From: Moniliophthora roreri
Lineage: Eukaryota; Basidiomycota; Agaricomycetes; Agaricales; Marasmiaceae
DNA length: 64,000 nucleotides
Direction: 5' to 3'
Assembly (NCBI GenBank): GCA_001466705.2
Contig: LATX02000213.1
Location: 248,001 to 312,000 of the forward strand
Made by a program: the position numbers and the translations under genes. Below the pieces are notes generated by a model, which worked only from the letters and a program-made list of their open reading frames with translations, ran no database searches and was not told where the DNA came from. Below are positions 8,460 through 60,650 of the stretch, in pieces (within the stretch, counting starts at the first letter, position 1; each line of letters starts with the position of its first letter).

Positions 8460-10199
8460 TCAAAACTCGAACCGAGATGGACGATCTTGGGATACATGAA
8501 CTCCTTCAGCTCTCTGCCTCGCCGCAGCTTGCTTCGAGCTCGACGCAACAGCAACAGGATCATCTCCAAACTCTTCAATAATCGTCGAAAGCACTCCAGG
8601 AGCAGCTCTAAAACTACCCATAGTCCTGGTTGCTGTAGACTTGTGTTCATCTTGCTTGTGTTCCCAATGCCGAAGGTGGAGGAGGAAGCGGGCGGTGAGG
8701 AGTGTGGAAAGGCTACATACAGGGGAGATGCAGATCTATCAGTTTCGCCAATAACGCGGGAATGTATACCACGTACGGAAGTAACACTGCGTTGAGTAGA
8801 CGCTGGAGGAAGCCTGCCTATCATATGAGCGCGTATATCAGATTGAGGGCTTCTAGGTCTAGACCGGGACTAATACTCACCGGAGCGCGCTAGATGAAGA
8901 TAAGGTTAGCCAACGTGTGGGAAGGCGAATGTAAAAGAAGGAACTCACATAATTAAGAACGACCGCAGCTGTGGTGATCAAGGAGACAATACTACATCGG
9001 GGTTACCTTGGTTACATCGTTCTTGATGGCAAAGTGACGTGTTACCATACCTAAAGTATAGGATACCTGTAAAGCCGATGTAAGTACGACCTATGGAACA
9101 GAACCTCCCAAGAAGGGATACTATTTACCTTGCTCGAAAATCATATACAATATACCACCCTTTTGAGTGGAACCCGTGCCACCATCGACACGAAAAGCCT
9201 GCACAGTCCGAATAATAGTGAAAATAGCGGCCGAATATTCAAAAATGACCATGAATATTGACAAGAGCTCGTCAGCTGTACACGCAAGTCAATGAAAATC
9301 TCCCAACGGCGGATGATTTATGAATCTGCGTACCACTGGAATAACGAACGCGTTAGTAACCCGGAATAGCAACCTGAGGGCACGAACGAACGTACATATG
9401 AATACTTGACGAGCCAACACATCGGAGTCCAGGAATGTGTGTCTGGCGAACCCGTCACAATGAGACACGGTCGAGCGGCAATAGATTTACTTACGATATG
9501 AAGAGCCATACAGACTACCCCAAGCGCTGAAAGGTACGCCAATATCCATTTATTCCGCCCAAAGATGGCATAGGTCCTTGCCGTGAACGTCACTACGTGA
9601 TGCATAGGTAGAATGATATCTGATTAGCATCCAGCGCTGATTATTTACGACAACACACCTACCAATCACTGCACTACGGCCGAAAAAACTTAGAGCCGCA
9701 ATGACTTTGTACCACGTATCACAGCTGAGAGTATCCATTGAATAAACATGCTACTAAACGGAAGCAGTAGTGAACAGCTCACTAGAGGGAGTTTGGGAGT
9801 CAGCAATCTACGACTTAATAGAGTTTTACGAGAAGACGACGACATACCGTATCACCCAACAATTTTGCCACCGCGAGGAGGTAGAGAATGTTTGTTATCA
9901 AGGCGTGTCGACAGCAAATATAGAGCGCCGTTGATAGACGTGGCTTGGTACCCCACATGTATTTGACTTCCATAGGGAAAGTCAAGGCATAGTCATACCA
10001 TAGAACCGCTGTTGCAGATCGGAGATCGTCAGTGGACTCTGGGACAGCAGGAGGGAGGGTAGTCGTGTTCGTACTGATGCTAGCCCACTGGATGTAGAAT
10101 TGCAGGTAACTGGGGCAAGGTGTCAAAAACAGACGTAGTGACGACTTCGAAGAGCTGAACTCACTGCGTTACAGCAGCCGACTCAGCTTTGCTAGCCAT
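8460..10199 (-). CDS. DUF6533-type multi-pass membrane protein
   Basis: Minus-strand gene of about nine exons. Secure exons are 10199-10165, 10109-9848, 9750-9663 and 9592-9495. Further exons lie near 9260-9130, 9050-8952 and 8815-8460, the last ending at a TGA at 8462-8460. The first long exon holds the family signature (ATAVLWYDYALTFPMEVKYM, about residues 50-70). Later exons give CDTWYKVIA, RTYAIFGRNKWILAYL and FMVIFEYSAAIFTIIRTVQ. The 3' exons give GILYMIFEQ, ITTAAVVLNY and ARFLLHLRHWE. Five to seven hydrophobic segments are expected, typical of these fungal integral membrane proteins of unknown role. The C-terminal tail of about 60 residues is polar. One junction, between 9495 and about 9260, is not resolved. 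I see no frame break, so the gene is probably functional. Confidence 0.75.
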
Positions 10200-11040
10200 G
10201 GTCAAGGACTGGTTCTGGAAAGGGGTGGTTAGTGTTTTGAGGGACAGAATAGAGGAAAAAAAACAGTACTTATAAAGGCTCGTCTCATGGGAAGCCGGAA
10301 CGGCCGACAAGAACCAGTCAGATAGACGTCTTTCAAAGTTTAAATCCTTGATATTCCACCGAAGATCAGGCTTCGGGGGACTTGACCAAGATATAGCCAC
10401 GCCAGCGAGGCACATTCAGCGGGGCCAGGCCCAAAAGCCCGAAATGACGTCGAGGACAAGGATCGAGCGCCTGCTATACCAAGCAAGAAAGGAATGAGAT
10501 TCGATGAACCTATGAAGGAAAAGTAGAACGAACCTCAGTACACCGCTCCATAAGCCCTTTCGATGTGTCACAACTCCTGCCAAACTCGCCTGTCCAGGAC
10601 CTGTCCTTGATGATGAAAAGAATGACTCCCTCAAATTCATTAATAGCTCAGGAGAGAGAAAGCGAGTTGTAAGTCCTATAAAGGAAGAATGAGAATCAGA
10701 CATCAGGTTCTCGAGATGATCACATACTGACTTTTTTGACAGGGCGCTAATCCCCGCATCGGCAATAGAATGTATTTCGAGTTAATAAAGGAAACTTGCT
10801 GGACCGAATGACCGAATATGAGTATCGTCTCACACCCGCCGAACGAATAACGACCTCATCTTTAGAAACGCCTTCTTCTGTGACAAGCGGCCAACTGCCA
10901 ACGAGAGATGGGATGATTGCGTCTGTCAGTGTCACCCTGGAGGAACCAGCGAGGCCCCATCTGGAGTAAAAGGTCCAGGAAACATAGCTGTTTCAATGCT
11001 ATTTTTCGAGGAGAAAAAAAATAGCTGGTGTTTTGAACGG
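10200..11040. other. No gene recognised
   Basis: Contains the promoter and 5' UTR of the DUF6533 gene (minus strand). Several short minus-strand frames (for example 10416-10703 and 10747-10935) have no family I can recognise and no clear splice structure. Sequence is CG-normal, so it is not part of the decayed fraction. Confidence 0.35.
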
Positions 11041-18237: not shown

Positions 18238-20584
18238 CTAGCTGTCCATATGTGAAAAGCCATCTACTTCCATATCTGATTCCTTATTAACATGCATCAA
18301 CCTCATTCTCTTCTTCCATTTCTTCCAACATTGAAGAATCTTCTTCACTGGACCAGTCTTGAACATCATCATCCTCTTTATCCTAGTATCAAGAGTAGGT
18401 CCATCTACCATTAATATCATTAGTATAAAATCAAGGAGATATAGAAATGACTAATGAATGCATACCAGATTCTCCAGAATCAGAGGTGGAAGTCATTTCT
18501 GTTGAATCCCAAGTTTCAAACTGATCATCATCTCCAACTACCTCCAAGATAGAATAGCCAAACAAGCCAGCAAGGTCTATTGTTGAGGGATCAAAGTGAT
18601 GATAATGGTGAATCATTTTGATAGCTTCATAGACACTTTGATCCCAATATGCATAGAGAAATCGTACTTCAGAAGTAAAAGATGGAAGTCCCAATGACAA
18701 TTGCATAGCCTCTGACATCTCTTCTTTTCCAGAAGGGTCAGAAGACCAGAAATATTTTGTACCCTCTGCCCAGGATCTCCACACCTCTTTATTCTCAGAA
18801 GGTTGAGGAATTGGTTGGATGAACAGGTACACTGGACCAGCACCACTTGATCCAGATGTAATACTTGTGTTCTCCTGGGGCATAGGGTGTTGTCTCTTGC
18901 ATTTGAAGGTGAGGTCAAGTCTAGCATAGACACCTGTTATATGTTAGCAGACTACAGCCATAAGCAAGTCAATAAAAACACTTACTATACTTATCCCACT
19001 CATCTTCATCAATTCCAAGTTGGGTAAACACTCTGTGTGCCTGAGTACTCCATAAAGATATCAATGTAGCAAGTGATGACAAGGAATATCGTAAAGTCAT
19101 CTCTTCAACACATTGAATATCCATTGGCATAACTGTAAACCTATGTTTTCAGTCAGTGCACAACATCCACTATAACACAGTTTTATACATACTGCACTGA
19201 GCCATCCTCTATCACATATAGGCTCTCTCTCATTGCATTAGGACTAATATCTGCTGTGCAGAAATAGTAATGTGTTGTGTCCCTGACTTTCACAGGCATT
19301 CTGGCAATGGCTTTTTGACTGGGCCGGTGGAAAACTGTGCCAGAGAGTGTTTGGGGAATAAATCCAGCATCTTCATCAGTCAACTTCTGCCAGAATGTCC
19401 TGAAGGACCTAGTAATTCCTGAGGTGATAACAATAGCATGAACTGTTCTGGTAAGGTAGTCAAAGGTAGTGCCCATGTTACTGTATGTCTGAATAGAGAG
19501 TGGGAGAAGTTGGCCAATGAATATTGAATTTGATGGATAGCTCAATATCATCCGGCTTTCATAGAGAGGGATCTGAACATGAGGTCCTAGACGCAATTCA
19601 CCACTTCTTGGGTCAATCCATAGATCAGCTATGTTCTATAACCTTTTTTGTCAATGCAGCATAGAAGTTTGAGTAAAATAAGACAGACTATCATTTCACC
19701 TGGTTTCCATAGAGTTAACTGTCAAGAAAATAAGAAAGGAACAGTTGTACTATAATTATTCACATACCTGATGCTCAAAGTATGCATAGAGTAATGGAGA
19801 ACATATATTATTGTTGAGAGTGACACATGATAGAGGAATCAATGCTGCATTGAAGTTCAAGGAGACTAAGTCAGTGCTACACTACAAACATGACTGATGC
19901 ACAGACCATTATAGAAGATCAGTGCCAGTGAACCACTTTGATTGTTACTATAGCCAAAAAGCTGAGCAACATGTGGACTCCTGAGGATAATTCATATTAG
20001 AGCCAACAGAACGAAGGAATAATTATTATACCTGATGTGAGTGAATTTATTGAAATCCTGTTTGAAGGTCTATATTGAGATTGAGATGAGTCCCAGATAT
20101 GATTTTATCAATGAAATATGCAGCTGGCCTTATAGGCATCCTTGCCACTGTATTGAACATGCATAAACTCTGTATCTCCAAGTCTATCTCCAATAAAGAT
20201 GTGAGCAGCACTGATTGTTCGACATGCTGCAATCCTCTGATGTGTGACTAAATTAACTTTCCCCACTGTACCATCCTTCCTTCTGAACTCCTTCTCAGTA
20301 ATACATTCTTCATCTCTTTCAACCTCTGTGCCACTGGCAAGGGGCCTTGTAAGATATGTGTCACCTGGTTGAATGTGCCTATACTAGAAATGATTCAGCA
20401 TCCAATTCAATGCAACAGATACAGAACACAAGCATACATCATCCCATCTTGTCTGCTCTCTCCTTGTTTGCTGTGCAGACAGCACCAAGTTGCCATGGAG
20501 ATGTCTGATATTTGTCTGAGATCCATGGACATTGGAAACCTGTTCACCAGTGATTGTGAAGTCTGAGCATCCTTCAAAGGCCAT
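18238..20584 (-). pseudogene. Family X gene, copy 1 (agaricomycete-type orphan family)
   Basis: Multi-exon minus-strand gene, best reconstructed of the set. Exon 1 (20584-20438) starts MAFEGCSDFTI and carries VHGSQTNIRHLHGN, an N-terminal motif style I associate with large, uncharacterised agaricomycete families. Later exons give YLTRPLASGTEVERDEE, ISAAHIFIGDRLGDTEF, SPHVAQLFGYSNN and DLWIDPRSGELRLGPHVQIP. Near the 3' end come VYLFIQPIPQPSE, GTKYFWSSD and a very acidic tail. Compared with the copies at 48 and 61 kb, the last exon has lost a few bases and changes frame, and its splice acceptor is altered, so the C-terminus is damaged. In all copies the intron after DAYK starts with GC instead of GT. 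The gene body is nearly CG-free. Function is unknown; it could be host gene or remnant of selfish DNA. Confidence 0.6.
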
Positions 20585-21200
20585 TGTGATAGTAGAGGTT
20601 TGGGGGAAAGGAAGGAAAGAGTGTGGGAGATATATGCAGGCTGCAACAAGTGCACAAGGCATATACACAGCATGAGTCGGTGCAAGAGCGGTTCCTTCAC
20701 AAGTTGAAATGTGGACATGAGGTCTTTGCCCGATATAGGGAACGGACCTGACTCCGGAGATGAATAACCCCAAAAGGAAGGCACTGCACCCTTACACTTG
20801 GGTACAAGCCATGCTGTATGGAATCATGTTGGACGTGTGTTTTGGACGAGTTAAATTGTTTTCATTGTTATTTCTCAGTTTATAATAGCGAAGATACATG
20901 TGGAGCAAGTTAGCAAGAGTCAGATGCAAAGAAGTCGGACACGCAACAAAAACAAACCAAAAAGTCCAAATGACGCCGCTGTTCAAAGTCTTTCCATCAA
21001 AGAGTGAGTCGGGAGTGAGATAGCGAGAACTTATTAGGACTTGAAGACGCTCCTTGCCGCATGGAGAGAGTGTTGGCGTCATTAATATCAATGATGTGAG
21101 TCGAGCGCTTTTGCCGTGAGAAAGCGGAAGAAGCCATTTTAGCGCCAAGATCATTCACACTCTTTCCTTCCGTTCACTGTGCTCTTTCGTCTGCGTACCA
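20585..21200. promoter_or_regulatory. Divergent promoter between X copy 1 and B copy 1
   Basis: CG-containing stretch between the CG-free X body and the plus-strand B gene. It holds the core TTTTAGCGCC at 21,137-21,146 (E2F/MBF-like, compare TTTSSCGC), next to CCGCTTTC and CACGGC-like words on the minus strand. The same layout recurs at 39,808, and with TTTTGGCGCC at 24,886, 43,479, 47,719, 54,070 and 56,923. Confidence 0.5.
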
Positions 21201-32689: not shown

Positions 32690-34436
32690 ATGAAGTGCTT
32701 GAGTGGCTTGGGCACTCTTTTTGCTGCCTATGACAGACTGCAGGTTCACACTATCAAGTAAGTCTTCCATCATATATATCAACAATCACATGCCCCAGGA
32801 TTATGATCTTCACTAGACATTTACTGGAATCCTGTCATTAAAGATAATCCCAATTATCTGCACACACTATAATCCTGTGTAATCTCAAGTATAATATTAA
32901 TAAATCCAGCACCTTAGTGCCAACAGTGAACTGGAAGATAAACCTAATCATAATCCAGTGTAATCCAGCATAATTCTAATTGGCAATCCTTTCTATGAAC
33001 CATTCCCACTGTCACCCACCTCTGTGTAATTCCATGAATAATCCAGCTCCTGTCATGACTCTAATCCAAGGGACATGCATGGCCTAAATGGTAATCCAGC
33101 TTGCAATATGATACAAGACTAATGACAGCCTACAGAGGATCTTGTCAGTTATTAGTGTAATAGGGGATTGCATTGGAACTGGAGCTGTCTTCTAATCCAA
33201 GCAATTTTCATTGTCAGTGTCCCAGGTATAAATCACTGGCAGGGTATCATACAATGCAGGTTAGGAATGATGCAATGGATGGACTTCCACTGAGACACTG
33301 GTGGGATCCTCAACATACATTGAACATATGATGATTAATGATAGATAGTTGCTGGCAAAGAAGTCCTTCATCCTGTCATGTCCCCCATTGTATGTAGTCT
33401 CAGAGCCCTTCAGGAAGTCTTTTCTGTGTTTTGGCACTGAATATAATATGAGACAGTTCTCATAAACCCTGTTTTTCATGAGTAGTTCTTAGCCCAAGGG
33501 TTCAGTCATGTGCATCTCATAACAGAAAATCCTCACCATCATACATTGGAATCCTTGGAATGATGACATTTCTAACATATCAACAGGGTAAGATTTATTG
33601 TCAGCAGCATAAGAGAGGATATGATGAATGAAGAATGTGGTGTTGCATATTCACCAGGATCTGTGTGCTAATATCAGCTGCAATATGAAGTAAGGCCTGT
33701 TGAGTATACCTTTGTATCCTGATTCTCATTCCTCAACTCACAGCCCTGTTTCTGGTAGAAAGACATCAGACCTGTAAGAGATGAATGCATCTGAGAGGCA
33801 GAGCATACCTGCAACATTCTGATCCCATGTAGCCAGATGGTGATAGTCATGGAAGGAAAGAAAGAGACCAATTCCCTCAACTCATGAGCTCTGTGATGCA
33901 TTAGACTGGTGAGAATTCAACAGTTTATTTCACTTGAACCACCACTAGATGACACTGTCAACTTTACTCCCTTTCCAAACACTTTTCCTGCTTGTTTCTT
34001 GGATGTGAAGCATAATATGCCTTTTAATATACATGGAAATGCAACTATACACCTGAGGACAATAGTTTGATGTCTCTACAGCAGTGTCAGAGAGTGGCAT
34101 GCCTTGAATCAGCACATAACTGTGTATAACCCACCTCTTGCAGTCTTGTGACTTACACACCATTTCAGTCATGAATAAGAGCTCAGCAATTACCTGGAGA
34201 TTTGGATATTTCAATGCAACACACATTTATAATTAATCATAGAATATGCATCCTTTCAACAAGGTGGTTACATGTTCAGTGACCAGGAGTGATTGACTCT
34301 AGAGGGTGAATTTGAATGCCAGATATGTGTTATTCAGATTTTTATTTGAGTTGATTTGGGATACTGAAAAAGATTATGCCAGCTACAATCCCTCCATTCT
34401 TGCATGCATGATCCATTGTGTGATCTGCTGGAGTTA
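32690..34436 (-). mobile_element. Y element, copy 2, with X 3' flank at its left
   Basis: 32,690-32,785 matches, inverted, the sequence downstream of X copy 5 (63,620-63,700), so an X 3' flank precedes the element. The Y end with the AATCCTGTCATTAAAG core is at 32,795-32,851. Broken minus-strand frames match Y copy 1: VPKHRKDFLKGSE at about 33,430 and PQVYSCISMYIK near 34,045. The two insertions of copy 1 are absent. Confidence 0.6.
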
Positions 34437-35424
34437 ATCCTGTGTAATCTCAAGTATAATATTGATAAATCCAGCACCTCAGTGCCAACAGTGAACTGGA
34501 AGATAAATGAAACATAGTCCAGTGTAATCTAGCATAATCCTAATTGGCAATCCTTTCTGTGAATCACTCTCACTGTCGCCCACCTCATAATCCTGTGTGA
34601 TCTATGATCAATCCAGCTCCTGCCATGATCCAAATTCAAGGGATATGTGTGGCCTAAATGGTAATCCAGCTTGCAACATGATACAAGACTACTACAGAGG
34701 ATCTTGTCAGTTATTAGTGCAATAGGGGAGTGCATTGGAACTGGAGCTGTCTTCTAATTCAAGCAATTTTCATTGTTGGTGTTCCAGGCATAAGGGAGGA
34801 TATGATGAATGAAGAATGTGGTGTTACATATTCAGCAGAATCTGTGTGCTAATATCAGCTGCAATGTGAGGTAAGGTCTGTTGAATACACCTTTGTATCC
34901 TTATTCTTATTCCTCAACTCACAGCCTTGTTTCTGGTAGAAAGACATCAGACCTGTGAGGGATAAACATCAGTAATGTGATAAGCATTACCTGCAACATG
35001 CTGATTCCATGTAGCCAGATTGTGATAGTCATAGAAGGAAAGGAAGAGACTAATTCCCACAACTCATGAGATCTGTGATGCATTGACTGGTGAGAATTTA
35101 ACAGCCTCTTTCACTTGGACCACCACTAGATGACACTGTCAACTTTACTCCCTTCCCAAACACTTTTCCTGCTTGTTTCTTAGATATGAAGCATGATATG
35201 CTTTTTGATATACATGGAAATGCAACTATACACCTGAGGACAATAGTTTGATGTCTCTACAGGAGTGTCAGAGAGTGGCATGCCTTGAATCAGCACATAA
35301 CTATGTATAACCCACCTCTTGCAGTCTTGTGACTTACACACCATTTCAGTCATGAATAAGAGCTCAGCAATTACCTGGAGATTTGGATACTTCAATGCAA
35401 CACACATTTATGATTACTCATGAA
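34437..35424 (-). mobile_element. Y element, copy 3, internally deleted
   Basis: Second, tandem Y copy beginning at a TCCTGTGTAATCTC stretch also found at 32,875. It lacks most of the central coding part; the joint CCAGGCATAAGGGAGGAT at about 34,785 is shared, inverted, with copy 4 at 49,645. So copies 3 and 4 descend from one deleted form. It stops at the N at 35,425. Confidence 0.6.
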
Positions 35425-35425
35425 N
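35425..35425. other. Single N, block joint
   Basis: One unresolved base where Y copy 3 meets the 3' part of X copy 2. The last X exon is missing here, so sequence may be lost at this joint. Confidence 0.9.
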
Positions 35426-35431
35426 ATCTTC

Positions 35432-37625
35432 ATCCCAACAAGTATTAAGAGTAGGACCATCTACTATCAATATCATTAGCACAAAATCAAAGAGACTAAT
35501 GGATGCATACCAGATTCTTGAGAATCAGAGGTAGAAGTCATTTCTATTGAATCCTCCCAAGTCTCAAACCTATCATCATCTCCAACTAACTCCAAGATAG
35601 AATGGCCAGCCATGGAAGCAAGGTCTACTGTTGAGGGATCAAAGTGATGATGATGGTGAACCATTTTGATAGCTTCATAGGCACTTTGATCCCAATAGTA
35701 ATAGATAGCATATATTTCAGAGGTGAAAGATGGAAGCCCCAGTGACAATTGCATGTCCTCTGACATCTCTTCTTTCCCAAAAGAGTCAGAAGACCAGAAA
35801 TATTTTGTACCCTCTGCCCAGAATCTCCACACCTCATCATTATCAGAAGGTTGAGGAATTGGCTGAATAAACAGGTACACTGGACCAGCACCACTTGACC
35901 CAGATGTAATACTTGTATTCTCCTGGGGCATAGGGTGTTGTCTCTTGCATTTGAAGATGAACTTAATGCTGCTAAGGGTACCTGTTATATGTTAGCAGAC
36001 TACAGCTATAAGCAAGTCAATAAAAGCACTAACTATACTCATCCCACTCATCTTCATCAATCCCAAGTTGGGTAAACACCCTGTGTGCCTGAGTCATCCA
36101 TGGATATGCCAATTCAGCAAATGATGATGAGAAATATTGTAAACTAATCTCATCAACACATTGAATATCCATTGGCATAACTGTAAATCTATGTTTTCAG
36201 TTAGTGCACAACATCCACTATAACACAATTTTGTACATACCGCACTGAGCCATCCTCCATCACATCTAGGCTCTCTGTCATTGCATCAGAACTAATATCT
36301 GCACTCCAGAGATAGTAATATGTCCTGTCCCTGACTTCCACAGGCACTCTGGCAATAATGTTTTGACTGGACTGGTGGAAAACTGTGTCAGAGAGTGTTT
36401 GAAAGATAGATCCAGCATCTTCATCAGTCAACTCTTGCCAGAATGTCCTGCTAGACCCAGTAATTCCCAGGATGATATTAACAGGATGAACTGTTCTGGT
36501 GAGGTAGTCAAAGGTAGTGCCTATGTCACTGTATGTCTGAATAGAGAGTGGAGGAAGTTGGCCATTGAGCATTGAATTTGATGGATAGCTCAATAGCATC
36601 CAGCCTCTATAGAAGGGGATCTGAACATGAGGTCCTAGATGCAATTCATCACTTCTTGGGTCAATCCATAGATCACCTATGTCCTGTAACCTTTTTTGTC
36701 AATGTAGCATGGAAGTTTGAGTAAAATAAGACAGACTATTTCTTCATCTGGTTTCCATAGAGTTAACTGTCAAAAGGATAAGACAGAACAGTTGTACTAT
36801 AATTATTCACATACCTGATGCTGAAAGTATGCAAGGAGTAATGGAGAAAGTATATTATTGTTGAGAATCACACGTGATAGAGGAATCAATGCTGCATTGA
36901 AGTTCAAGGAGATTAAGTCAGTATTATACTACAAACATGACTGATGCACACACCATTATAGAAAATCAGTGCCAGTGAACCACTTTGATTGTCACTGTAG
37001 CCAAAAAGCTGGGCAACATGTGGACTCCTGAGGATAATTCATATTAGAGCCAAGAGAATGAAGGAATAATTATTATACCTGATGTGAGTGAATTTATTGA
37101 AATCCTGTTTGAAGGTCTATATTGAGATTGAGATGAGTCTCAGATATGATTTTATCAATGAAATATGCAGCTGGCCTTATAGGCATCCTTGCCACTGTAT
37201 TGAACATGCATAAACTCTGTATCTCCAAGTCTATCTCCAATAAAGATGTGAGCAGCATTGATTGTTTGACATGCTGCAACCCTCTGATGTGTGACTGATT
37301 TAACTTTCCACACTGTACCATCCTTCCTTCTGAACTCCTTCCAAGTAATATGTTCTTCATCTCTTTCAACCTCCATGGCACTGGCAAGGGGCCTTGTAAG
37401 ATATACATTGCATGGTTGAATATACTTATACTAGAAATGAGTTAGCATTCAATTCAGTGCAACAGATATGGAACACAAGCATACATCATCCCATCTTGTC
37501 CACTCTCTTCTTGTTTGCTGCATCAGATTCCCTTGAACCTGATATGTGATATTTGTCTGATCTCCATGGACATTGGAGACCTGTTCAGCATTGATGGTGA
37601 AGTTTGAACATCCTTCAAAGGCCAT
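35432..37625 (-). pseudogene. Family X gene, copy 2, 3' truncated
   Basis: Start at 37,625 (MAFEGCSNFTI). Exon pattern as in copy 1, including HVQIPFYRGWMLLSYPS and VYLFIQPIPQPSDND. The splice donor that follows FEHQLTLWKP is GATGAA instead of the GGTGAA of copy 1, so normal splicing there is unlikely. The last acidic exon is cut off near the N at 35,425. The body is CG-poor and the promoter upstream keeps CG. Confidence 0.6.
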
Positions 37626-38085
37626 TGTGATAGTGGAGGTTTGGGGGAAAGGAAGGAAAGAGTGTGGGAGATATATGCAAGCCGCAACGAGTGCACAAGG
37701 CATATACACAGCATGAGTCGGTGCAAGAGCGGTTCCTTGACAGGTTGAATTTGATATCAAACGTAGACTACATGAGGTCTTTGCCCGATATAGGGAACGA
37801 ACCTGACTCTGGAGATGAATAACCCCAAAAGGAAGGCACTGCACCTACACCTGGATACAAGCTACGCTGTATGAAATGATGTCGAACGTGTGTTTTGGAT
37901 GAATTCAATTTGTTTTCATTGTGATTTCTCAGTTTATTTATAATGTAAAATACCTAAGAGCTATCAGCATCTACATGCGGAGCAAGTTAGCGAGAGTCAG
38001 ACGCAAAGAAGTCGGACATGCACCAAAAACAAACCACAAAGTCCAAACGATGCTGCTGTTCAATGTCTTTCCATCAAAGGGTGAG
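37626..38085. promoter_or_regulatory. Upstream region of X copy 2, cut at N
   Basis: CG-containing promoter stretch matching 20,640-21,000. It ends at the N at 38,086 inside CAAAGGGTGAG, so its distal part, including the expected GCGCC core, is missing. 37,866-37,920 is the partner of the complemented segment at 39,463-39,517. Confidence 0.5.
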
Positions 38086-38086
38086 N
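38086..38086. other. Single N, block joint
   Basis: One unresolved base between the truncated X copy 2 promoter and an X copy 3 that starts mid-exon (CATCTTCATCAGTCAACTC), a sequence also found at about 36,416. Confidence 0.9.
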
Positions 38087-39222
38087 CATCTTCATCAGTC
38101 AACTCTTGCCAGAATGCCCTGCTAGACCCAGTAATTCCCAGGATGATATTAACAGGATGAACTGTTCTGGTGAGGTAGTCAAAGGTAGTGCCTATGTCAC
38201 TGTATGTCTGAATAGAGAGTGGAGGAAGTTGGCCAATGAATATTGAATTTGATGGATAGCTCAATATCATCCAGCTTTCATAGAGAGGGATCTGAACATG
38301 AGGTCCTAGACACAATTCACCACTTCTTGGGTCAATCCATAGATCAGCTATGTCCTATAACCTTTTTTGTCAATGCAGCATAGAAGTTTGAGTAAAATAA
38401 CATACCTGATGCTCAAAGTATGCATAGAGTAATGGAGAACATATATTATTGTTGAGAGTGACACATGATAGAGGAATCAATGCTGCATTGAAGTTCAAGG
38501 AGACTAAGTCAGTATTACACTACAAACATGACTGATGCACAGACCATTATAGAAGATCAGTGCCAGTGAACCACTTTGATTGTTACTATAGCCAAAAAGC
38601 TGAGCAACATGTGGACTCCTGAGGATAATTCATATTAGAGCCAAGAGAATGAAGGAATAATTATTATACCTGATGTGAGTGAATTTATTGAAATCCTGTT
38701 TGAAGGTCTATATTGAGATTGAGATGAGTTCCAGATATAATTTTATCAATGAAATATGCAGCTGGCCTTATAGGCATCCTTGCCACTGTATTGAACATGC
38801 ATAAACTCTGTATCTCCAAGTCTATCTCCAATAAAGATGTGAGCAGCACTGATTGTTTGACATGCTGCAACCTTCCAATGTGTGACTAATTTAACTTCCA
38901 CCACTGTACCATCCTTCCTTTTGAAAGCCTTCTTAGTGATATGTTTTTCATCTCTTTCAACCTCTGTGTCAATGGCAAGGGGCCTTGTAAGATATACATT
39001 GCATGGTTGAATATGCATATACTAGAAATGAGTCAGCATTCAACTCAGTGCAATAGATATAGAACACAAGCATACATCATCCCATCTTGTCCGCTCTCTC
39101 CTTGTTTGCTGTGCAGACAGCACCAAATTGCCATGGAGATGCCTGATATTTGTCTGAGATCCATGGAGATTGGAGACCTGTTCAGCAGTGATTGTGAAGT
39201 CTGAGCATCCTTCAAAGGCCAT
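38087..39222 (-). pseudogene. Family X gene, copy 3, 5' half only
   Basis: Start at 39,222 (MAFEGCSDFTI). It runs to the HVQIPLYESWMILSYPS exon and breaks at the N at 38,086, so the 3' half is absent. An internal deletion around 38,398 removes the short LTLWKP exon seen in other copies. Confidence 0.6.
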
Positions 39223-39860
39223 TGTGATAGTAGAGGTTTGGGGGAAAGGAAGGAAAGAGTGTGGGAGATATATGCAGGCTGCAACGAGTGCACAAGGCAT
39301 ATACACAGCATGAGTCGGTGCAAGAGCGGTTCCTTGACAGGTTGAATTTGATATCAAACGTAGACTACATGAGGTCTTTGCCCGATATAGGGAACGAACC
39401 TGACTCTGGAGATGAATAACCCCAAAAGGAAGGCACTGCACCTACACCTGGATACAAGCTACCGACATACTTTACTACAGCTTGCACACAAAACCTACTT
39501 AAGTTAAACAAAAGTAAGTGATTTCTCAGTTTATTTATAATGTAAAATACCTAAGAGCTATCAGCATCTACATGCGGAGCAAGTTAGCGAGAGTCAGACG
39601 CAAAGAAGTCGGACATGCACCAAAAACAAACCACAAAGTCCAAACGATGCTGCTGTTCAATGTCTTTCCATCAAAGGGTGAGTCAGGAGTGAAACAACGG
39701 GGTCCTATTGAGACTTGAAGACGCTCCCTGCCGCGTGGGGAGAGTATTGGCGTCATTATCAATGATATGAGTTGAGAGCTTTTGCCGTGAGAAAGCGGAA
39801 GAAGCCTTTTTAGCGCCAAGATCATTCACACTTTTTCCTTCCGTCATAGCTTCCTTACTA
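39223..39860. promoter_or_regulatory. Divergent promoter of X copy 3 and B copy 2
   Basis: CG-containing stretch with the core TTTTAGCGCC at 39,808-39,817, in the same place relative to X as in copy 1. It contains the complemented 55-bp segment 39,463-39,517. Confidence 0.5.
39463..39517. other. 55-bp segment complemented without reversal
   Basis: Every base here is the Watson-Crick complement, in the same left-to-right order, of 37,866-37,920. The flanks (GATACAAGCTAC to the left, GTGATTTCTC to the right) are identical in both copies. The 20.8-kb paralogue resembles 37,866-37,920, so this copy is the altered one. Confidence 0.95.
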
Positions 39861-41000
39861 CTCGTCTGTGTACCATGACACAAACATTTAGAACAGTCAA
39901 TTCCCTGCTTTACCCAAGAATGCCATTCTTCACTAATCTCATGACTGCCATCTGACAGCTCGTGGACCCGATCCTTCGCAACACCAACGCCACATTCATC
40001 ACCCGCTGACATTGTATCAGCATCGGATCGTTAACCCTGCTGCATCGCCCCGTCTTCCTTGCGTATACAGCATTTCATCTGCTGTTCTGCGGTCGCTTAT
40101 AGTGTCCCCTCCCACCTTATCCTCCCTTTCTATTCTAATACACGATCGTTACACCGCAATATCATCTCCCATCTATACGTGAGGCCGCCCAGGCCCCAAA
40201 TGTCAGCAGCTTATCGACATCTTCTGCCGATCAACATTCCTTTGCACACCATGCATCATGCATCATTGCCACCTTCTTCCGCATGGGTGAATATCAGTTA
40301 CAGATTCCTTTCAGACCCTCACTCCCTCCCCTACCAACTTTCTGTTCATAGCAGTTCCATCATTCGACGAAACAAACCCCTTCCAGAATACTTCTTTCTT
40401 TCCAACTACCACCTACTCGCCTCACTCTCAAACAACCCCCATACGTCAAGCGTATTGACTCAATAATTGTTTCGCGAGGACCAATGCTTCGGGATGACAA
40501 CACACGAACGGCGACTCATGATATACACTGATAGGAAGAAAAACATGGGTTGGTTCAGGTATGTGTCGGTGTCTTTGCATCCCCGTCAAAGCACTCATTA
40601 CTTTTTAACATGACCGAGACGACACTCACTATACTTCATGCAGGGTACGATGGTAAGTCAAAGGCACATCGTATATCCTGATACCCAGTTTGCTAGTCTT
40701 TGGATATCTACAACATCATAGGCGCCAGTGGATAAGAAGATGTATTGGGCAAAAGATTGTTGGAATTGAGCGGTCACAGTAGACGATTGGGACAGATGTT
40801 GTCAGGTTCGCGCTAATACTCAACAGTAGGGATTTCAATGTATATTAGCACCTTGGTAACAGATATAATGCGAGAAATGTTCATTGGATCCAAATTTATT
40901 AACACTATTACATCGACGTGTGGCCGTACAAGGGAGAAACACACTCCGAGAATCAAGAGATAAAAAAAAAGTATAATCAAAGCGATAGCGCGCAGTACAA
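39860..41000 (+). pseudogene. Family B gene, copy 2, decayed
   Basis: Direct copy of 21,200-22,420 with many small changes. The YTDRKK-like exon ends with a donor at about 40,560. Frame breaks are present. Confidence 0.35.
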
Positions 41001-43440
41001 TAGCCCATTCAGTGACCATAAGCTCTCAACTGGACGGTACTTCCTTCAACTCTCCATCTCGTTGCCTCACTACTCTCAAACGCTCCTCCGGCCTTGATAC
41101 CAAACGGAAGCGGATTCACATGAACCCGAAACTACGGTCCATGTCGAGTGCCCGCACAGCGCAGAGATATCGAAGAATTACTGCTCCTCGTCGAACCACT
41201 CGTGTTGGTAGAAGCAATACCGATCTGGGTATCAGCACGCGCTGGCTTGCGTCATTGCTAGAATACGACCCGACATTTGGCTGTCCGAGTTGTAGTCCTC
41301 CAACGAAACCCTCTCCCGGCCTATAACATTCTCTCTATCCTCCTGTCCAAGTCTGCCGAGCGTACGAGAACACGAGATCCGATAAAGGTGACGCACAAAG
41401 AAACGCCTTCGATGTGAAGAGAAGAGAAGTAGGCACCGTGTCGTGGTAGAACCAGCGATAACGCCGCTGATGGAATGGATAGTCGACAGCAAAAGTTCAT
41501 GTTGGACGGACATCGAAGCATCTCCCGATTGCTTTACGCTCGATCTCCTCCTGCGCTCTGGACCTTTGCACGGCGAAACCGGGAACCAACCACCGACGTC
41601 ATCGTTACTCGAACGAATGTTCCGAGACGTTCTCTAGTCATCGCCTGCTTCGCTGAAAAGGAAAGTTAGTATAGAGGGAAAAACGGGAAAAGAGTCAATT
41701 GGAGACATACCATGTATATGAGAGTGCACGAAAAGCGACGTTGCATGTGGGATGTCTAGAATACATGGCGGATGAGCCAACGACTAGTTGAGAGAGAGAA
41801 TAAACACTCACGATGTCTCGCAGCCTCTTCTACTCCTGCAGGCTGCACCTGATCCACGAGAGAACGACAATGGGCAAGAACCGGCGTCGGCGAATGATCA
41901 ATCCCTGACTGCGTTGACGGTAACATTGGGAGCTGCGACAAGGGAGTGGCCATGGTGGTCGTGAAGCTCGGCGCTGATGTTCGATCTAGTTGCCGTACTC
42001 CCAATTCTGAAGGTGCATGGAGTATTACTGGTTCAGAAGACCTCGGATATCGGATTGGGTGACCTAGACGAATAATCGCATGAGCAAAAGGAAGGCAGGC
42101 TTGGTAGCATTAACACGGACCTCAAATGACCCTTTCCGACCTTCACCGATCACACTAATCCACAGTCTACCCTGGTTCCGCTCGTCTCAACCTCATTCTC
42201 TCAGCCTACACCCATTCATCCTCGTTCGTGATGTTTCTCTCCGGGTACCATCTCCCTCCAAGGTGCCTTCCAATACCCGGCTCGTGGAGTCGACGACTTT
42301 GCACAATTGGAACTTGAGCAGAATTGGGAGTGATTCTGTGTCTGGCACTGTGGTCTGGTTCGAGTGGACATGATACGATTTCGTTTCGTTGGGAAAGGCT
42401 AAGAAACTGACGCATGGGGTGGATAAGGATGTCTGGCCTTGATTGGGAGGATACTAGTGGTATCCAGCGTTCTGTCCCGAGAGAAGCCATGTTACGTTGC
42501 GAGGGCCATCATGGGTTTGACAAGTCTGTGGGATGTGTAGTCGTTTGGGAGAATGGGTACTAAAGGCATAGCGAAACCGTGGACGGTGAGCGGTACTGTC
42601 ATAGTGAGGTTGTTACGGATGATGCTGAGCCTATGATGACCATTGGTCGACGGCGACGACGGTCTAGCGAGATCTCATCCCTGCCTCCATTTGTCGCTTC
42701 ATCAACGCCCAAAAACACGCTTCTCACGAAATTTTCCTCTTGCTGCCCTTGACATCCCCGTCCAGCTTCTCGAGCTCAGCATGACTCATCGCTGCTGTCA
42801 AAGGCGCTTGGATTGACACCCAGCAGTTTTCATCACCGCCAAGCCTCTGCTGTACATGATCGGGCGTCGTCGTCGAGTGGGGAAGGTGATGAAAGATTAG
42901 GACCCGGGCGGTTGGAACGAGGTTTTATTTACCAGACTGTACGTTTCTTCGGCGGTCTGTGGAGAAATAAGGGTGTAAGCCAATGAGCGATACGGAAAGC
43001 GGAAGAACCAAAGAAAAAAAGAAGAAAAGCTGAAGAGGTAAGGGGATCATTGCCAGTACTCACCTATATTGATGCCGCCGCATTTTCTCAAGTGTGCCAT
43101 TCCGAGGGCCTGCTTCGTTGCGGTAGTACCATCTAATTACTTGGTACAGTAACCTGATTATGGATACGCGGGTCGAATCGTGCAAAAAAGCTGCTTGATG
43201 GAGGACTCGGGAGCTGACCAGGTAATGATTGAGCGGAACGATCTTGGCGTAATGGGTAGAAGGAGAAGTCGAATAGGTCCACTATGGCGAACTTGAAGAG
43301 AAGAGTTGAGATCGCTCGCAGCTACTAGAAAAGACATTTTGCATTACTTACATCCTCAACGAGTATTTGCGTATTGCTCTCCAGACGTTCCAGGGTCCAG
43401 CAGGTTCTACGAGGAAAGAGTAAGTCGTCGTTGTCAATGA
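41000..43440 (-). pseudogene. Family C gene, copy 2, decayed
   Basis: Direct-order copy of 22,300-24,880. Minus-strand frames conserved with other copies include VSLCVTFIGSRVLVRSADLD (around 41,380), VQPAGVEEAARHR before an intron near 41,815, and RWYYRNEAG near 43,125. It lacks the 165-bp MITE of copy 1. Not intact. Confidence 0.35.
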
Positions 43441-53241: not shown

Positions 53242-53609
53242 ATCAAATTTGAACCTGGTGAATTCGGAGTGCATCAACGAAACTTTCGTATATAGGTGAG
53301 TAGAGGATGGTGTAGGAGAACGGATGTGAGTCTAAACAAAGAGTTGAAAGCGAGTTTATGGTCTGAGATACATTGAAAGTGATTTGTGTCAGGGTATGAG
53401 TGTGTGTTTGGATAGTGTGACTTACCATAAAGGAGGTTGATAGGAGAGCGGGCAAGGGTCTGAAGAGAAGATTACGGGGTGATAGTGCAATCTGTTCCGT
53501 GGGGCGTTCGCTCGAGCGGGACGAGGCGAGGATAGTATGTGATATTGAAGTAGGACGCTTTTTGAAGACTGTCCAGCGGTAAAATGCCAATAACTGACGA
53601 ATATGCAGG

Positions 53610-53662
53610 CAAAACCGCGTTGTTTACCTTCCCTCTCCTATAACGCAACAACTCTAACGAAT
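53610..53662. other. 53-bp segment complemented without reversal
   Basis: Each base is the complement, in the same order, of 56,463-56,515. The flanks (ATATGCAGG left, CTACGGAATT right) are identical. The related sequence at about 25,287-25,340, read in reverse, agrees with 56,463-56,515, so the first copy is the altered one. Confidence 0.97.
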
Positions 53663-54059
53663 CTACGGAATTTCGGAAACCGGGGCAGCAGAGACTGTTG
53701 AGCATTACAGCAGCGGATGGTGAGCATGTATATGCAGAGACGATGGTGTGGAGTATTAGCTGCTGTCGGAGAGGGAGCTATATATGTAATAAGGCAGCCC
53801 GGAAAGTACATGACATCCATGTTTTTTTGACAGGAAGTAGAGCTGCTTGAGAGATTTCCAGACGGCGGTCAATCGAAGAATAGCTGCTGAATCTGCCGGG
53901 ATGAATACATTTTATTGAGGGCGTTGTGAAGACCGGCGTTCTGGAATCTGGGTTTGTGAGAGTTGAGAGTTAGGGATGGTTTGAGGTGGTAGGAACGGAT
54001 GCTAACATCATCATCATCGTGAAAGTATGTTGGATGGAGAGTTGTCGAGAGCAAAGCCG

Positions 54060-54125
54060 TGTGAAAGAGTCTTGGCGCCAAAATGAAATTTCCGCTTTCC
54101 CACGGCGTTTGAACGCTCGCGTCAT
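54060..54125. promoter_or_regulatory. Divergent C/D promoter core
   Basis: TTGGCGCCAAAAT at 54,072, then CCGCTTTCCCACGGCG and GCGTCATTGACAACGACGACG. Same module as at 24,886, 43,479 and 47,719. Confidence 0.45.
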
Positions 54126-56040
54126 TGACAACGACGACGACGCCTCGTAGAATCTGCTGGACCTTGAAATGTCTTGAGGGCATAATACATTCAAGACTCG
54201 TTGAGCATGTAAGTAATAAAACATGTCTTTTCTTTTTGCCGTTGTTTATTTTTTTTTCCAGCAACTGCGAGCAATCTCAATTCCAAGTTCGCCCTGGTGG
54301 ACCTTTTTCGACCTCTCCTTCTGCCCATTACGCCAAGATTGTTCCGTTCAGTCATTACCTGGTCAGTTCCCGAGTCCTCTTCCGTCAAGCAGCTTCTTTG
54401 CATGACTCGACCCGTGTATCCACAATCACCAGTGAAAGGTTACTGTACCGAGTAAACAGATGGCGCTACCGCAATGAGGCAGGCCAGCTATATTGGAATG
54501 GCTCATCTGAGAAAGTGCGGGGACGTCAGTATAGGTGAGTACTGGCACCGATCCCTTTATCTCTTCGGCTTCTTGTTTTGGTTCTTCCGCCTTTCGTATC
54601 GCTCATCAGCTTACATCCTAATTTCTCCACAGACCGCCGAAAAGTCGTACGATTTAGTATATAGCACCTCGCCAAACCACCCAGGCCCTAATCTTCCATC
54701 ATCTTTCCCACTCGACGACGACGCACGATCATGTACAGCAGATGCTTGGCGGTGACGGAAATGTACTAGGTATCAATCCAAGTGCCTTTGATAACGATGA
54801 CGAGCCACGCTAAGCTCGAGAGGCTGGACCGGGATGTCAAGCGCAAGAGGAAGGTTTTGTGAGAAGCGTGTTCTTGGGCGTTGATGAAGTGACACGTGGA
54901 GGCAGTAATGAGATCTCGCTGGACCATTGTCATCGTCGAGCAGTGGTCATCACAGACTCAGCATCATCCGCAATCACCTCGCCACGACAGTACCGCTCAC
55001 TGTCCACGGTTTCGTCACGCCTCCAATACCCGTTCTCCAAAACGACCACACATCTCAGAGACTTGTTAATATTTCGTGAAGACTACGAGGTACCCATGAT
55101 GACCCTCGCAACGTAGCACGGCTTCTCTCGGGACAGAGTACCGGATACTATGAGCATCCCTTCAATCAAGACCGGCATTCTTATCCACCCCCTGCCTCAG
55201 CTTCTTAGCCTTGCCCGACGAAACGAAATCGTGACATGTCTACTCGAACCGCAGAATCACTGCCAATTCTGTTCAAGTTCCAATTGTGCAAAGTCGCCAA
55301 CTCGACGAGCCGGGTATTGGAAGACACCTTGGAAGGAGATGGTACCCGGAGAGAAACGTCGCGAACGAGATGAATGGGTATAGGCCGATAGAATGGGGTT
55401 GAGATGAGCAGAAATAGGGTAGACTGTGGACTGGTGGGGTCGGTGAAGGTCGGAAAGGGTCATTTGAGGTCCGTGTTAACGCTACTAAGCCTGCCTTCCT
55501 TTCGCTCATGTGATTATTCGTCTAGATCGCCCAATCCGATATTCGAGGTCTTTCGAAGCACCAATACTCCATGCACCTTTAGGATTGGGAGTATGATAAC
55601 TAGATCGAACGTCAGCGTCGAGCTTCATCGCCACCATCGCTACTACCTTGTCGCAGCTCCCAAGTGTTACCGTCAACCAGTGTTACCGTCAACAACGCAG
55701 ATTGATCATTCGCCAACGCCGGTTCTTGCCCATTACCGTTCTCTCGTGGATCGGGTGCAGCCTGCAGGAGTAGAAGAGGCTCCGAGACATCGTGAGTGTT
55801 TATTTCCTCTCTCTCTCTCAACTAGTTGTTGGCTCATTCTCCATGTATTCTAGACATCCCACATGTAACGTCGCTTTTCGTGCACTCTCATGCATGGTAT
55901 GTCTAAAACTGACTCTTTTCGTTTTTCCCTCTATACTAACTTTTCCTTTTCAGCCAGGCTAGCGATGACCAGAGAACGTCTCGGAGCATTCAATGACGTT
56001 GATGGTTGATTCCCAGTTTCGGTGCAGGCCCAGGGTGCAG
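54120..56040 (+). pseudogene. Family C gene, copy 3
   Basis: A 5' UTR intron (GTAAGTAATA...TTTTCCAG, 54,210-54,261) is followed by an exon with SPSAHYAKIVPFSHYLVSSR and RVNRWRYRNEAGQLYWNG, ending at a GTGAGTACT donor at 54,535. Later stretches include MLGGDGNVLGINPSAFDNDD (about 54,740-54,800), RSVFLGVDEVTRGG (about 54,862) and VQPAGVEEAPRHR before an intron near 55,790. One or more stops (for example near 54,812) break the reconstructed frame, and no ATG is found where the fusion gene has one. Confidence 0.4.
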
Positions 56041-56093
56041 GAGAGAGATCGAGAGTAAAGGAATTGGGAGATGCTTCGATGTTCGTTTAGCAT

Positions 56094-56094
56094 N
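56094..56094. other. Single N between the two identical 2.85-kb copies
   Basis: One unresolved base, preceded by AGCAT, between the end of copy one and the start of copy two. Confidence 0.9.
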
Positions 56095-58941
56095 ATCAAA
56101 TTTGAACCTGGTGAATTCGGAGTGCATCAACGAAACTTTCGTATATAGGTGAGTAGAGGATGGTGTAGGAGAACGGATGTGAGTCTAAACAAAGAGTTGA
56201 AAGCGAGTTTATGGTCTGAGATACATTGAAAGTGATTTGTGTCAGGGTATGAGTGTGTGTTTGGATAGTGTGACTTACCATAAAGGAGGTTGATAGGAGA
56301 GCGGGCAAGGGTCTGAAGAGAAGATTACGGGGTGATAGTGCAATCTGTTCCGTGGGGCGTTCGCTCGAGCGGGACGAGGCGAGGATAGTATGTGATATTG
56401 AAGTAGGACGCTTTTTGAAGACTGTCCAGCGGTAAAATGCCAATAACTGACGAATATGCAGGGTTTTGGCGCAACAAATGGAAGGGAGAGGATATTGCGT
56501 TGTTGAGATTGCTTACTACGGAATTTCGGAAACCGGGGCAGCAGAGACTGTTGAGCATTACAGCAGCGGATGGTGAGCATGTATATGCAGAGACGATGGT
56601 GTGGAGTATTAGCTGCTGTCGGAGAGGGAGCTATATATGTAATAAGGCAGCCCGGAAAGTACATGACATCCATGTTTTTTTGACAGGAAGTAGAGCTGCT
56701 TGAGAGATTTCCAGACGGCGGTCAATCGAAGAATAGCTGCTGAATCTGCCGGGATGAATACATTTTATTGAGGGCGTTGTGAAGACCGGCGTTCTGGAAT
56801 CTGGGTTTGTGAGAGTTGAGAGTTAGGGATGGTTTGAGGTGGTAGGAACGGATGCTAACATCATCATCATCGTGAAAGTATGTTGGATGGAGAGTTGTCG
56901 AGAGCAAAGCCGTGTGAAAGAGTCTTGGCGCCAAAATGAAATTTCCGCTTTCCCACGGCGTTTGAACGCTCGCGTCATTGACAACGACGACGACGCCTCG
57001 TAGAATCTGCTGGACCTTGAAATGTCTTGAGGGCATAATACATTCAAGACTCGTTGAGCATGTAAGTAATAAAACATGTCTTTTCTTTTTGCCGTTGTTT
57101 ATTTTTTTTTCCAGCAACTGCGAGCAATCTCAATTCCAAGTTCGCCCTGGTGGACCTTTTTCGACCTCTCCTTCTGCCCATTACGCCAAGATTGTTCCGT
57201 TCAGTCATTACCTGGTCAGTTCCCGAGTCCTCTTCCGTCAAGCAGCTTCTTTGCATGACTCGACCCGTGTATCCACAATCACCAGTGAAAGGTTACTGTA
57301 CCGAGTAAACAGATGGCGCTACCGCAATGAGGCAGGCCAGCTATATTGGAATGGCTCATCTGAGAAAGTGCGGGGACGTCAGTATAGGTGAGTACTGGCA
57401 CCGATCCCTTTATCTCTTCGGCTTCTTGTTTTGGTTCTTCCGCCTTTCGTATCGCTCATCAGCTTACATCCTAATTTCTCCACAGACCGCCGAAAAGTCG
57501 TACGATTTAGTATATAGCACCTCGCCAAACCACCCAGGCCCTAATCTTCCATCATCTTTCCCACTCGACGACGACGCACGATCATGTACAGCAGATGCTT
57601 GGCGGTGACGGAAATGTACTAGGTATCAATCCAAGTGCCTTTGATAACGATGACGAGCCACGCTAAGCTCGAGAGGCTGGACCGGGATGTCAAGCGCAAG
57701 AGGAAGGTTTTGTGAGAAGCGTGTTCTTGGGCGTTGATGAAGTGACACGTGGAGGCAGTAATGAGATCTCGCTGGACCATTGTCATCGTCGAGCAGTGGT
57801 CATCACAGACTCAGCATCATCCGCAATCACCTCGCCACGACAGTACCGCTCACTGTCCACGGTTTCGTCACGCCTCCAATACCCGTTCTCCAAAACGACC
57901 ACACATCTCAGAGACTTGTTAATATTTCGTGAAGACTACGAGGTACCCATGATGACCCTCGCAACGTAGCACGGCTTCTCTCGGGACAGAGTACCGGATA
58001 CTATGAGCATCCCTTCAATCAAGACCGGCATTCTTATCCACCCCCTGCCTCAGCTTCTTAGCCTTGCCCGACGAAACGAAATCGTGACATGTCTACTCGA
58101 ACCGCAGAATCACTGCCAATTCTGTTCAAGTTCCAATTGTGCAAAGTCGCCAACTCGACGAGCCGGGTATTGGAAGACACCTTGGAAGGAGATGGTACCC
58201 GGAGAGAAACGTCGCGAACGAGATGAATGGGTATAGGCCGATAGAATGGGGTTGAGATGAGCAGAAATAGGGTAGACTGTGGACTGGTGGGGTCGGTGAA
58301 GGTCGGAAAGGGTCATTTGAGGTCCGTGTTAACGCTACTAAGCCTGCCTTCCTTTCGCTCATGTGATTATTCGTCTAGATCGCCCAATCCGATATTCGAG
58401 GTCTTTCGAAGCACCAATACTCCATGCACCTTTAGGATTGGGAGTATGATAACTAGATCGAACGTCAGCGTCGAGCTTCATCGCCACCATCGCTACTACC
58501 TTGTCGCAGCTCCCAAGTGTTACCGTCAACCAGTGTTACCGTCAACAACGCAGATTGATCATTCGCCAACGCCGGTTCTTGCCCATTACCGTTCTCTCGT
58601 GGATCGGGTGCAGCCTGCAGGAGTAGAAGAGGCTCCGAGACATCGTGAGTGTTTATTTCCTCTCTCTCTCTCAACTAGTTGTTGGCTCATTCTCCATGTA
58701 TTCTAGACATCCCACATGTAACGTCGCTTTTCGTGCACTCTCATGCATGGTATGTCTAAAACTGACTCTTTTCGTTTTTCCCTCTATACTAACTTTTCCT
58801 TTTCAGCCAGGCTAGCGATGACCAGAGAACGTCTCGGAGCATTCAATGACGTTGATGGTTGATTCCCAGTTTCGGTGCAGGCCCAGGGTGCAGGAGAGAG
58901 ATCGAGAGTAAAGGAATTGGGAGATGCTTCGATGTTCGTTT
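56095..58941. repeat. 2,847-bp direct duplicate, second copy
   Basis: Second copy, with the unaltered form at 56,463-56,515. It runs on without a break into 58,942 onward, so it is the copy in continuous context. Its promoter core is at 56,925 and its family C gene (plus) at about 56,973-58,893. Confidence 0.9.
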
Positions 58942-60650
58942 TCGTACTTGGAAACGACAGCTGATAGTAAGGTAGTCGCCGCAATAGCGGCTTAGAACCA
59001 TCCTCGACACGGTGTCTACCTCTCTTCGTGTCGAAGCCGCTTCTTCGTGCGTCACTTTTACCGAATCTCGTATTCTCGTACCCTCGGCAAATTTGGACAG
59101 GACGATAGAGATATGTTATAGGCCGGGAGAGGGTTTCGTTGGAGGACTACGACTAGGACATCCAAATGTCAGATCGTATTCTAGCAATAACGCAAACCAC
59201 TTGCACGACCAAGGTCTTAGCCATAGCGAAGATGGTTGTGCTCATCTAAGCTACTTAAGTAGTACTTCTTAGATGCCTCAGCGCAGTGCGGGCACTCGAT
59301 ACGGACCGTAGTTTTGGGTTCATGTAAACCTGCTTTCGTGCTGACAGAGGTTGGTATCAAGGCAGAGGAGCGTTTGAGAGTAGTGAGGCAACGAGAGATG
59401 GAGAGTGGAAGGAAGTAGCGTCCAAGCGAGGGGTTATGGTTATTGAATGGGCTATTGTACCGTGCGCTATCGCTTTGACTATACACTTTGCTATTTATTT
59501 TGATTCTCGGAATATGTTTCTCCCTTGTACGGCCATATGTCAATGTTAATAGTGTTGATAAATTTGGATCCAGAATGTTGAGCATTTTTCGCACTATATT
59601 TGCTACCAAGGTGCTAATATACATCGAAATTCCTACTATGTATTGAGTGTTAGCGCGAACACGACGATATCTATCCTAATCCTCTACCGTGACCGCTCAA
59701 TTTCAACAACCCTTTTTGCCCAATACATCTTCTTGACCCACCGGCACTTATGATATTTGAGATATCCACAAGGCTAGTAAACTGGATATCAGTATACGGC
59801 GTGCCTTTGGCTTACCGTCGTACCCTGCAGGGAGTGTAGCAAGTGTCGTCTCGTTCATGTTGAGACCGAGATACCTGTAAGTGTTGTAAAGCAATGAGTG
59901 CTTTGACGTGGATGAGAAGACACCGACACATACCTGAACCAACCCCATGTTCCCTTCATATCAGTGTATATCACAAGTCGCCGTTCGTGTGTTGTCGTCC
60001 CGAAGCATTGGTCCTCGGAGAAGAATTGTTAGGTTGTTTGGGAGTGAGACGAGTAGGTGGTAGTTGGAAAGGAGGAAGCATCTTGGAAGGGTTTGTTTCG
60101 TCGAACGATGACACTGCTATGAAAAGAAAGCTGGTAGGGAAGGGAGTGGGGGTTTGAAAGGAAGACGATTAATTGATGATGCAAGTCAATCTGTAGCTTG
60201 ATGCTCACCCATACGGGAGAAGGCGACAATGATGCATGATGGATGGGTGTGCGGGAAGGCATGTTGATCGGCAGAAGATGTCAATGAGCTGTTGGCGTTT
60301 AGAGCCTGGGCCTTATGTATAGATGGGAGGTGATATTGCGGTGTAGTGATCGTGTATTAGAATAAAAGGGGGACCGCAGAACAGCAGATGAAAATGCTGT
60401 ATACGCAAGGAAGATGGGGCGATGCAGAAAATTGACAATCTGATGCTGATTAGTGGGCGATGTGTTGTTGGTTGTGCTGCGATCAGATCCAAAAGCTGTC
60501 AGATGGCAGTTGTGAGATTAACGAAGAACAGCATTCTCGAGCAAAGCAGGAGAATAGACGCCTTCAGCCAGTATTATTGACTGTTGTAAATGTTTGTGTC
60601 ATGGTAGACAGACGAAAGAGCACAGTAGTAAGGAGGCTATGACGGAGGGA
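58942..60650 (-). pseudogene. Family B and C 3' region, inverted copy
   Basis: Reverse-order copy of about 21,200-22,800. The minus-strand exon RYLGLNMNETTLAT (about 59,875-59,835) equals the family B exon at 21,892. Plus-strand LRVEAASSCVTFTESRILV (about 59,026) equals the family C stretch at 22.7 kb. Frame breaks present. Confidence 0.4.

Follow-up and report, generated by a model that had tools for sequence, protein, structure and literature searches.

Introduction

Unjoined contig ends are a described outcome of gap filling. In the excerpts of the PBJelly description, a gap is termed 'overfilled' when its two extensions show no identifiable overlap yet add up to more than the predicted gap size; trimming of contig ends at some gaps is also described (PMC3504050). 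A fungal assembly is the subject here, and its species, Moniliophthora roreri, is considered asexual and haploid in the relevant excerpt of another source (PMC10468315).

The window analysed here is a stretch of 64,000 nucleotides, positions 248,001 to 312,000 of contig LATX02000213.1 (C112) in assembly GCA_001466705.2. Positions without a contig name are counted from its first letter. It holds repeat copies in which one short segment is replaced by its complement in the same order. In copying, recombination, inversion and template switching the two strands stay antiparallel, so none of these processes gives such a parallel complement, and we know of no copying or repair process that works in parallel orientation. 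In SOLiD colour space, a sequence and its complement give the same colour string.

Results

The first block, E1, is the base-by-base complement of its ordinary counterpart with the order kept (Table 1). The preliminary description had reported this relation, and it was reproduced at 55 of 55 positions. By our own arithmetic, the chance of a same-order complement match of 55 bases is about 1e-24 in a 64-kb window. Exact matches of this kind of at least 14 bases were listed for the whole window and consisted of the 55-base pair, a 53-base pair and then matches of at most 17 bases, and the length of 55/55 against 17 bases rules out a chance match for E1. The genome record and the window have the same letters over 39300-39700. 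The flanks of the pair had been called identical on both sides, which is true of the right flank (165 bases, up to N 38086) but not of the left one, where 2 of 200 bases differ.

The odd member of the pair was judged by paralogues. The copy at 37866 fits four aligned paralogues (at 20.6 kb, on C87, and on C112 at 331 kb and 347 kb), and the copy at 39463 does not. In the complement search, E1 matched its C87 paralogue at 55/55, and it also matched at 20.8, 60.9, 83.8 and 99.4 kb from the window start and on C74 (83-89%). The 83.8- and 99.4-kb matches, counted in this way, are the 331- and 347-kb paralogues of C112. Both the complement search and the paralogue alignment show E1 as the odd copy, in line with the earlier statement that the 20.8-kb paralogue agrees with 37866-37920. 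Related minus-strand reading frames, each containing a start MAFEGCS(N/D)FTI, are present at 37452-37844, 39043-39441 and 20387-20791, and E1 lies about 240 bases upstream of the start at 39222.

To the E1 and E2 pairs, a mismatch-tolerant complement search over C112:1-200000 and C112:248001-352000 (304 kb, the second part being the window plus the sequence to its right) and two further loci added two window blocks, at 58942-58996 and about 59203-59255. After C87:1-12000 and 9,279 bases of C74 were added, these blocks (E3 and E4) matched C74 exactly over 55 bases, and E4 was placed as in Table 1. The window thus has four blocks (55, 53, 55 and 55 bases) where two had been described. E2 is the odd copy of its pair, as judged by the paralogues at 25.3 and 103.0 kb, on C74 (85%) and on C87 (53/53). 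As complements, E1-E4 have zero mismatches to their closest relatives. All the odd copies in the stretches compared (C112, C87:1-12000, the C74 piece and the further loci) lie inside the window. Detection requires a paralogue, and one of at least 78% over 150 bases exists for 38,270 of the window's bases and for 121,372 bases of the compared sequence as a whole, so the search covered paralogous sequence. Weak complement matches with E-values of 0.005-0.1, other than those involving E1-E4, were taken as chance.

Table 1. Complement blocks, their ordinary counterparts and the two window joints with duplicated ends. Positions without a contig name refer to the window.
Feature	Position	Strand	Length	Remarks
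E1, same-order complement block, odd copy	39463..39517	+	55 bases	55/55 match; paralogues ordinary
Counterpart of E1 with ordinary letters, on the left side of N 38086	37866..37920	+		same 55 letters as C87:473-527
Joint, single N	38086..38086	.		36416-38085 similar throughout to 38087-39684; about 80 bases at 36730-36808 without counterpart
E2, complement block, odd copy	53610..53662	+	53 bases	C87:11426-11478 matches 53/53 as complement
Ordinary counterpart of E2, other side of N 56094	56463..56515	+		ordinary as judged by paralogues
Joint, single N	56094..56094	.		2,847-base overlap whose two copies differ only at E2
E3, complement block	58942..58996	+	55 bases	55/55 against C74
E4, complement block	59202..59256	+	55 bases	55/55 against C74; left edge possibly 59200, then 57 bases
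E5, complement block	C74:430989-431035		47 bases	sharp edges
E6, complement block	C118:342686-342740		55 bases	edges known to about 1 base
E7, complement block	C67:826467-826515		49 bases	sharp edges
E8, complement block	C75:2722-2776		55 by eye, 48 by BLAST	upper edge may be off by one base

For the genome-wide search, four complemented queries from two LTR-type retroelement families were run against the assembly (59,427,881 bases in 154 pieces). They gave 1, 0, 1 and 2 matches, the query without a match being the complement of C112:91451-93048. The blocks E5-E8 each sit inside an otherwise ordinary retroelement copy. A plain query of one retroelement stretch found at least 40 places covering nearly all of the stretch at 86% or more, so the blocks are rare per copy. 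Two retroelement-like families are represented by open frames at C112:84676-86310 and C112:89785-93048, with 503 and 673 genome places at first look.

In all, eight blocks were found on five contigs, with lengths of 55, 53, 55, 55 (57 if the left edge is at 59200), 47, 55, 49 and about 55 bases, and the length is about 55 in five of the eight. The clustering of lengths that the preliminary description proposed to check genome-wide is seen among the eight blocks, at 55 with a few shorter. Its proposal of one systematic cause is supported and is extended to all eight blocks; the events are then not 'independent', as it also called them. The surroundings of the blocks are arbitrary (upstream of a gene, in repeats, in a retroelement), and no shared edge motif stands out among the eight. 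Palindromic arms of at least 4 were noticed post hoc at 2 of the 16 block edges, with 6 at the right edge of E4 (59256/59257) and 4 at the left edge of E6 (L036:1500/1501); among 20,000 random window junctions, an arm of 4 was reached in 0.37% and of 6 in 0.025%, a lower frequency than among the block edges.

All 28 gaps read were single Ns: 19 in C112:1-200000, 4 in C112:248001-352000, 2 on C74 and 3 on C118. The two sides were compared for 26 of them, leaving out C74:332990 and C118:347144, and at 10 of the 26 the right piece opens with a repeat of the sequence that closes the left piece. At five joints the duplicated ends are 99.8-100% identical: C112:72361 (1,749 bases), C112:148164 (1,847), window 56094 (apart from E2), C112:317706 (with an insertion) and C118:340225 (2,020). 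These joints have the same sequence on both sides of the N and, judged from the sequence, are best read as unmerged overlaps. At the other five (C112:74579, C112:123433, window 38086, L035:545 and C118:344714) the identity is about 93-97% over most of the length, and the duplicated ends may be paralogous repeats. The copies at the joints should not be alleles since the species is described as haploid, which disfavours the two alleles of a dikaryon (the excerpt of PMC10468315).

Other repeats and joints were seen on C112. C112:1-1400 repeats 8846-9930 and 10013-10327, with the 82 bases between them missing, and ends at a single N. At C112:67384-70094 there is a 1,359-base direct repeat (67384-68742 and 68736-70094) with shared 31-mers throughout and no N between the copies. 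Twelve single-N joints cluster in 14 kb at C112:109766-123433, with pieces down to 323 bases. C112:165734-167332 encodes an F-box protein that has a 100% identical counterpart in M. roreri MCA 2997; the assembly itself is presumably from strain MCA 2952.

At N 56094, the overlap pairs 53242-56088 with 56095-58941, in which 53242-53609 equals 56095-56462 and 53663-56088 equals 56516-58941, both at 100%. The most plausible reading of the repeats here is that unmerged pieces overlap at their ends, not that genes stand in tandem. The left piece ends with AGCAT (56089-56093), which is the complement of 58942-58946, and these five bases, or four of them, recur in the paralogues at 85.7 and 22.8 kb. 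Therefore, the left piece has ordinary letters where the right piece starts E3. Across N 38086, most of the overlap shows 5-7% divergence between the two sides, so the reading as overlapping ends is less sure there, and the extensions may stem from different paralogues. The earlier link between the cause and near-identical repeats at an N is largely supported.

It is the duplicated copies that abut an N, not the blocks themselves: 39463 is 1,377 bases from N 38086, and 53662 is 2,432 bases from N 56094. For E5 the distance to an N is 956 bases, and the duplicated ends there span 295 bases (97%); for E6 the distance is 2,461 bases and the duplicated ends span 2,020 bases (99.9%). E8 begins 2,721 bases from the end of C75, of which C75:2450-3050 was read. 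The sequence around E7 is free of Ns for about 1.87 kb in both directions. Blocks lie near 4 of the 10 duplicated-end joints (N 38086, N 56094, L035:545 and C118:340225), and none was seen at the other 6. The nearness of blocks to an N is by itself a weak argument, because 45% of the paralogue-covered bases are within 3.2 kb of an N anyway.

Discussion

The blocks are most probably an assembly artefact in which the ends of old contigs at gap-filling seams were complemented by software, with a probability of about 0.83. They are almost certainly the product of a string-handling error during assembly and not of biology, since the same oddity recurs on other contigs, mostly near the joints of assembled pieces. 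A string operation in software is the simplest cause. The anomaly belongs to the assembly rather than to the fungus. Confidence in the gap seams as the site is slightly reduced, since near-identity holds for only five of the ten duplicated joints.

The proposed course is as follows. Longer reads would probably have been used to extend a contig set or fill its gaps. In some gaps, the two flanking contigs would have been extended past each other and left unmerged, with a single N between them. At the seams, the last or first 55 or so bases of the original contigs would have been complemented without reversal, or a string already reverse-complemented would have been reversed. At N 56094, the original left contig would have ended with E2 and the original right contig would have begun with E3. 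The gap between them would measure 2,426 bases, and both 53663-56093 and 56095-58941 would be fills that cross it. The former could have been built rightward from the left piece, overshooting by five ordinary bases (56089-56093) into the place of E3. The latter could have been built leftward from the right piece; it would pass E2 and reach into the left contig, where it has ordinary letters. Complementation would thus be confined to the contig ends themselves, both overshooting fills being ordinary.

The same course may apply to the other blocks. E1 would be the start of the contig right of N 38086, with 38087-39462 as the leftward extension of the right-hand piece, ending at E1. E5 and E6 would likewise be contig starts, at their distances from an N, and E8 the start of a contig whose extension by 2,721 bases reached the end of C75. 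E3 and E4 could be the two ends of one contig of 315 bases; pieces of 323 to 543 bases between Ns are present elsewhere on C112. Some observations fit this course poorly: no partner block was found downstream of E4, and none was seen in the piece 35426-38085, although paralogues cover both stretches; E7 has no N close by; and six of the duplicated-end joints showed no block. We infer that the block edges are old contig ends and that a gap filler or merger complemented them, which the geometry of E2 and E3 fits. By analogy, a tool of the PBJelly type may be one candidate; the search of open-licence literature did not pin down the responsible program.

A software step other than gap filling, such as polishing, structural-variant correction or overlap merging, could have had the same effect. 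The common length of 55 bases with few shorter ones could be a k-mer or window size, and there is no N close to E7. However, E3 coincides with the point where the left piece stops, and one inferred gap is bounded by E2 and E3, which makes a step of this kind an unlikely source.

Colour-space decoding is considerably less probable still. In SOLiD data, a wrong anchor base would flip a segment to its complement, which is one of the three segment-wide shifts that leave the colours unchanged, and the block lengths are near the short-read length. But the A-C/G-T and A-G/C-T shifts would be expected to be about as common, and neither was seen in the sequence scanned. When all 23 non-identity letter permutations were scanned on C112:1-200000, the window and four loci, the longest match beyond the complement (55 and 53 bases) was 30 bases, a low-complexity A-G swap of a sequence against itself, followed by matches of at most 22. 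The two colour shifts were rescanned with more sequence and with mismatches allowed, and the best E-value was 0.009, a self match. That all four blocks found by scanning are complements would have a chance of (1/3)^4. The A-G/C-T shifted query of one retroelement stretch gave 0 matches, versus 1 for the complement, an empty result that is uninformative alone.

It is very improbable that the blocks are real DNA, in which some unknown living process writes a parallel complement in units of about 47-57 bases. The printed letters do stand on five contigs. Against this, the same overlap is also present in ordinary form beside E2, and the left piece carries ordinary letters at E3. The preliminary description had left a real parallel complement open, and nothing was found that favours one. 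Small inversions between paralogues, which as reverse complements of about 50 bases do exist, can practically be discarded, because the E1 match is a complement in the same order and no inverted pair of at least 30 bases was found in 34000-42000; the same two results rule out a micro-inversion and, the copy not being antiparallel to its counterpart, a template-switch mutation for E1.

As biology E1 is unimportant, and it matters for data quality. The blocks represent an unusual class of assembly error that recurs across the public genome of a crop pathogen. A block in a promoter or coding stretch mimics dozens of clustered substitutions. Callers of inversions test the reverse complement and would not name a same-order complement error. 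A same-order complement scan of paralogues detects the blocks, so it can serve to screen other assemblies produced by the same route. A search of titles and abstract openings in the open-licence literature, with a few wordings, gave no description of such an error.

Among the known systems, a SOLiD decoding error can give a complemented segment with ordinary flanks as seen here, whereas the other colour-neutral shifts are absent from the sequence scanned. A micro-inversion, as misassembly or polymorphism, shares the segment of about 50 bases, the sharp edges and the otherwise near-identical copies, but it gives the reverse complement and not the same-order complement. Overfilled gaps of PBJelly resemble the joints here in that extension of the flanking contigs adds more sequence than the gap holds and leaves the sides unjoined; unlike the blocks here, complemented contig ends are not mentioned in the excerpts of that account (PMC3504050). 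In the strict sense of these excerpts, such gaps have no identifiable overlap, whereas N 56094 has one of 2,847 bases, and some overlaps here reach up to 100% identity and are still unjoined (PMC3504050).
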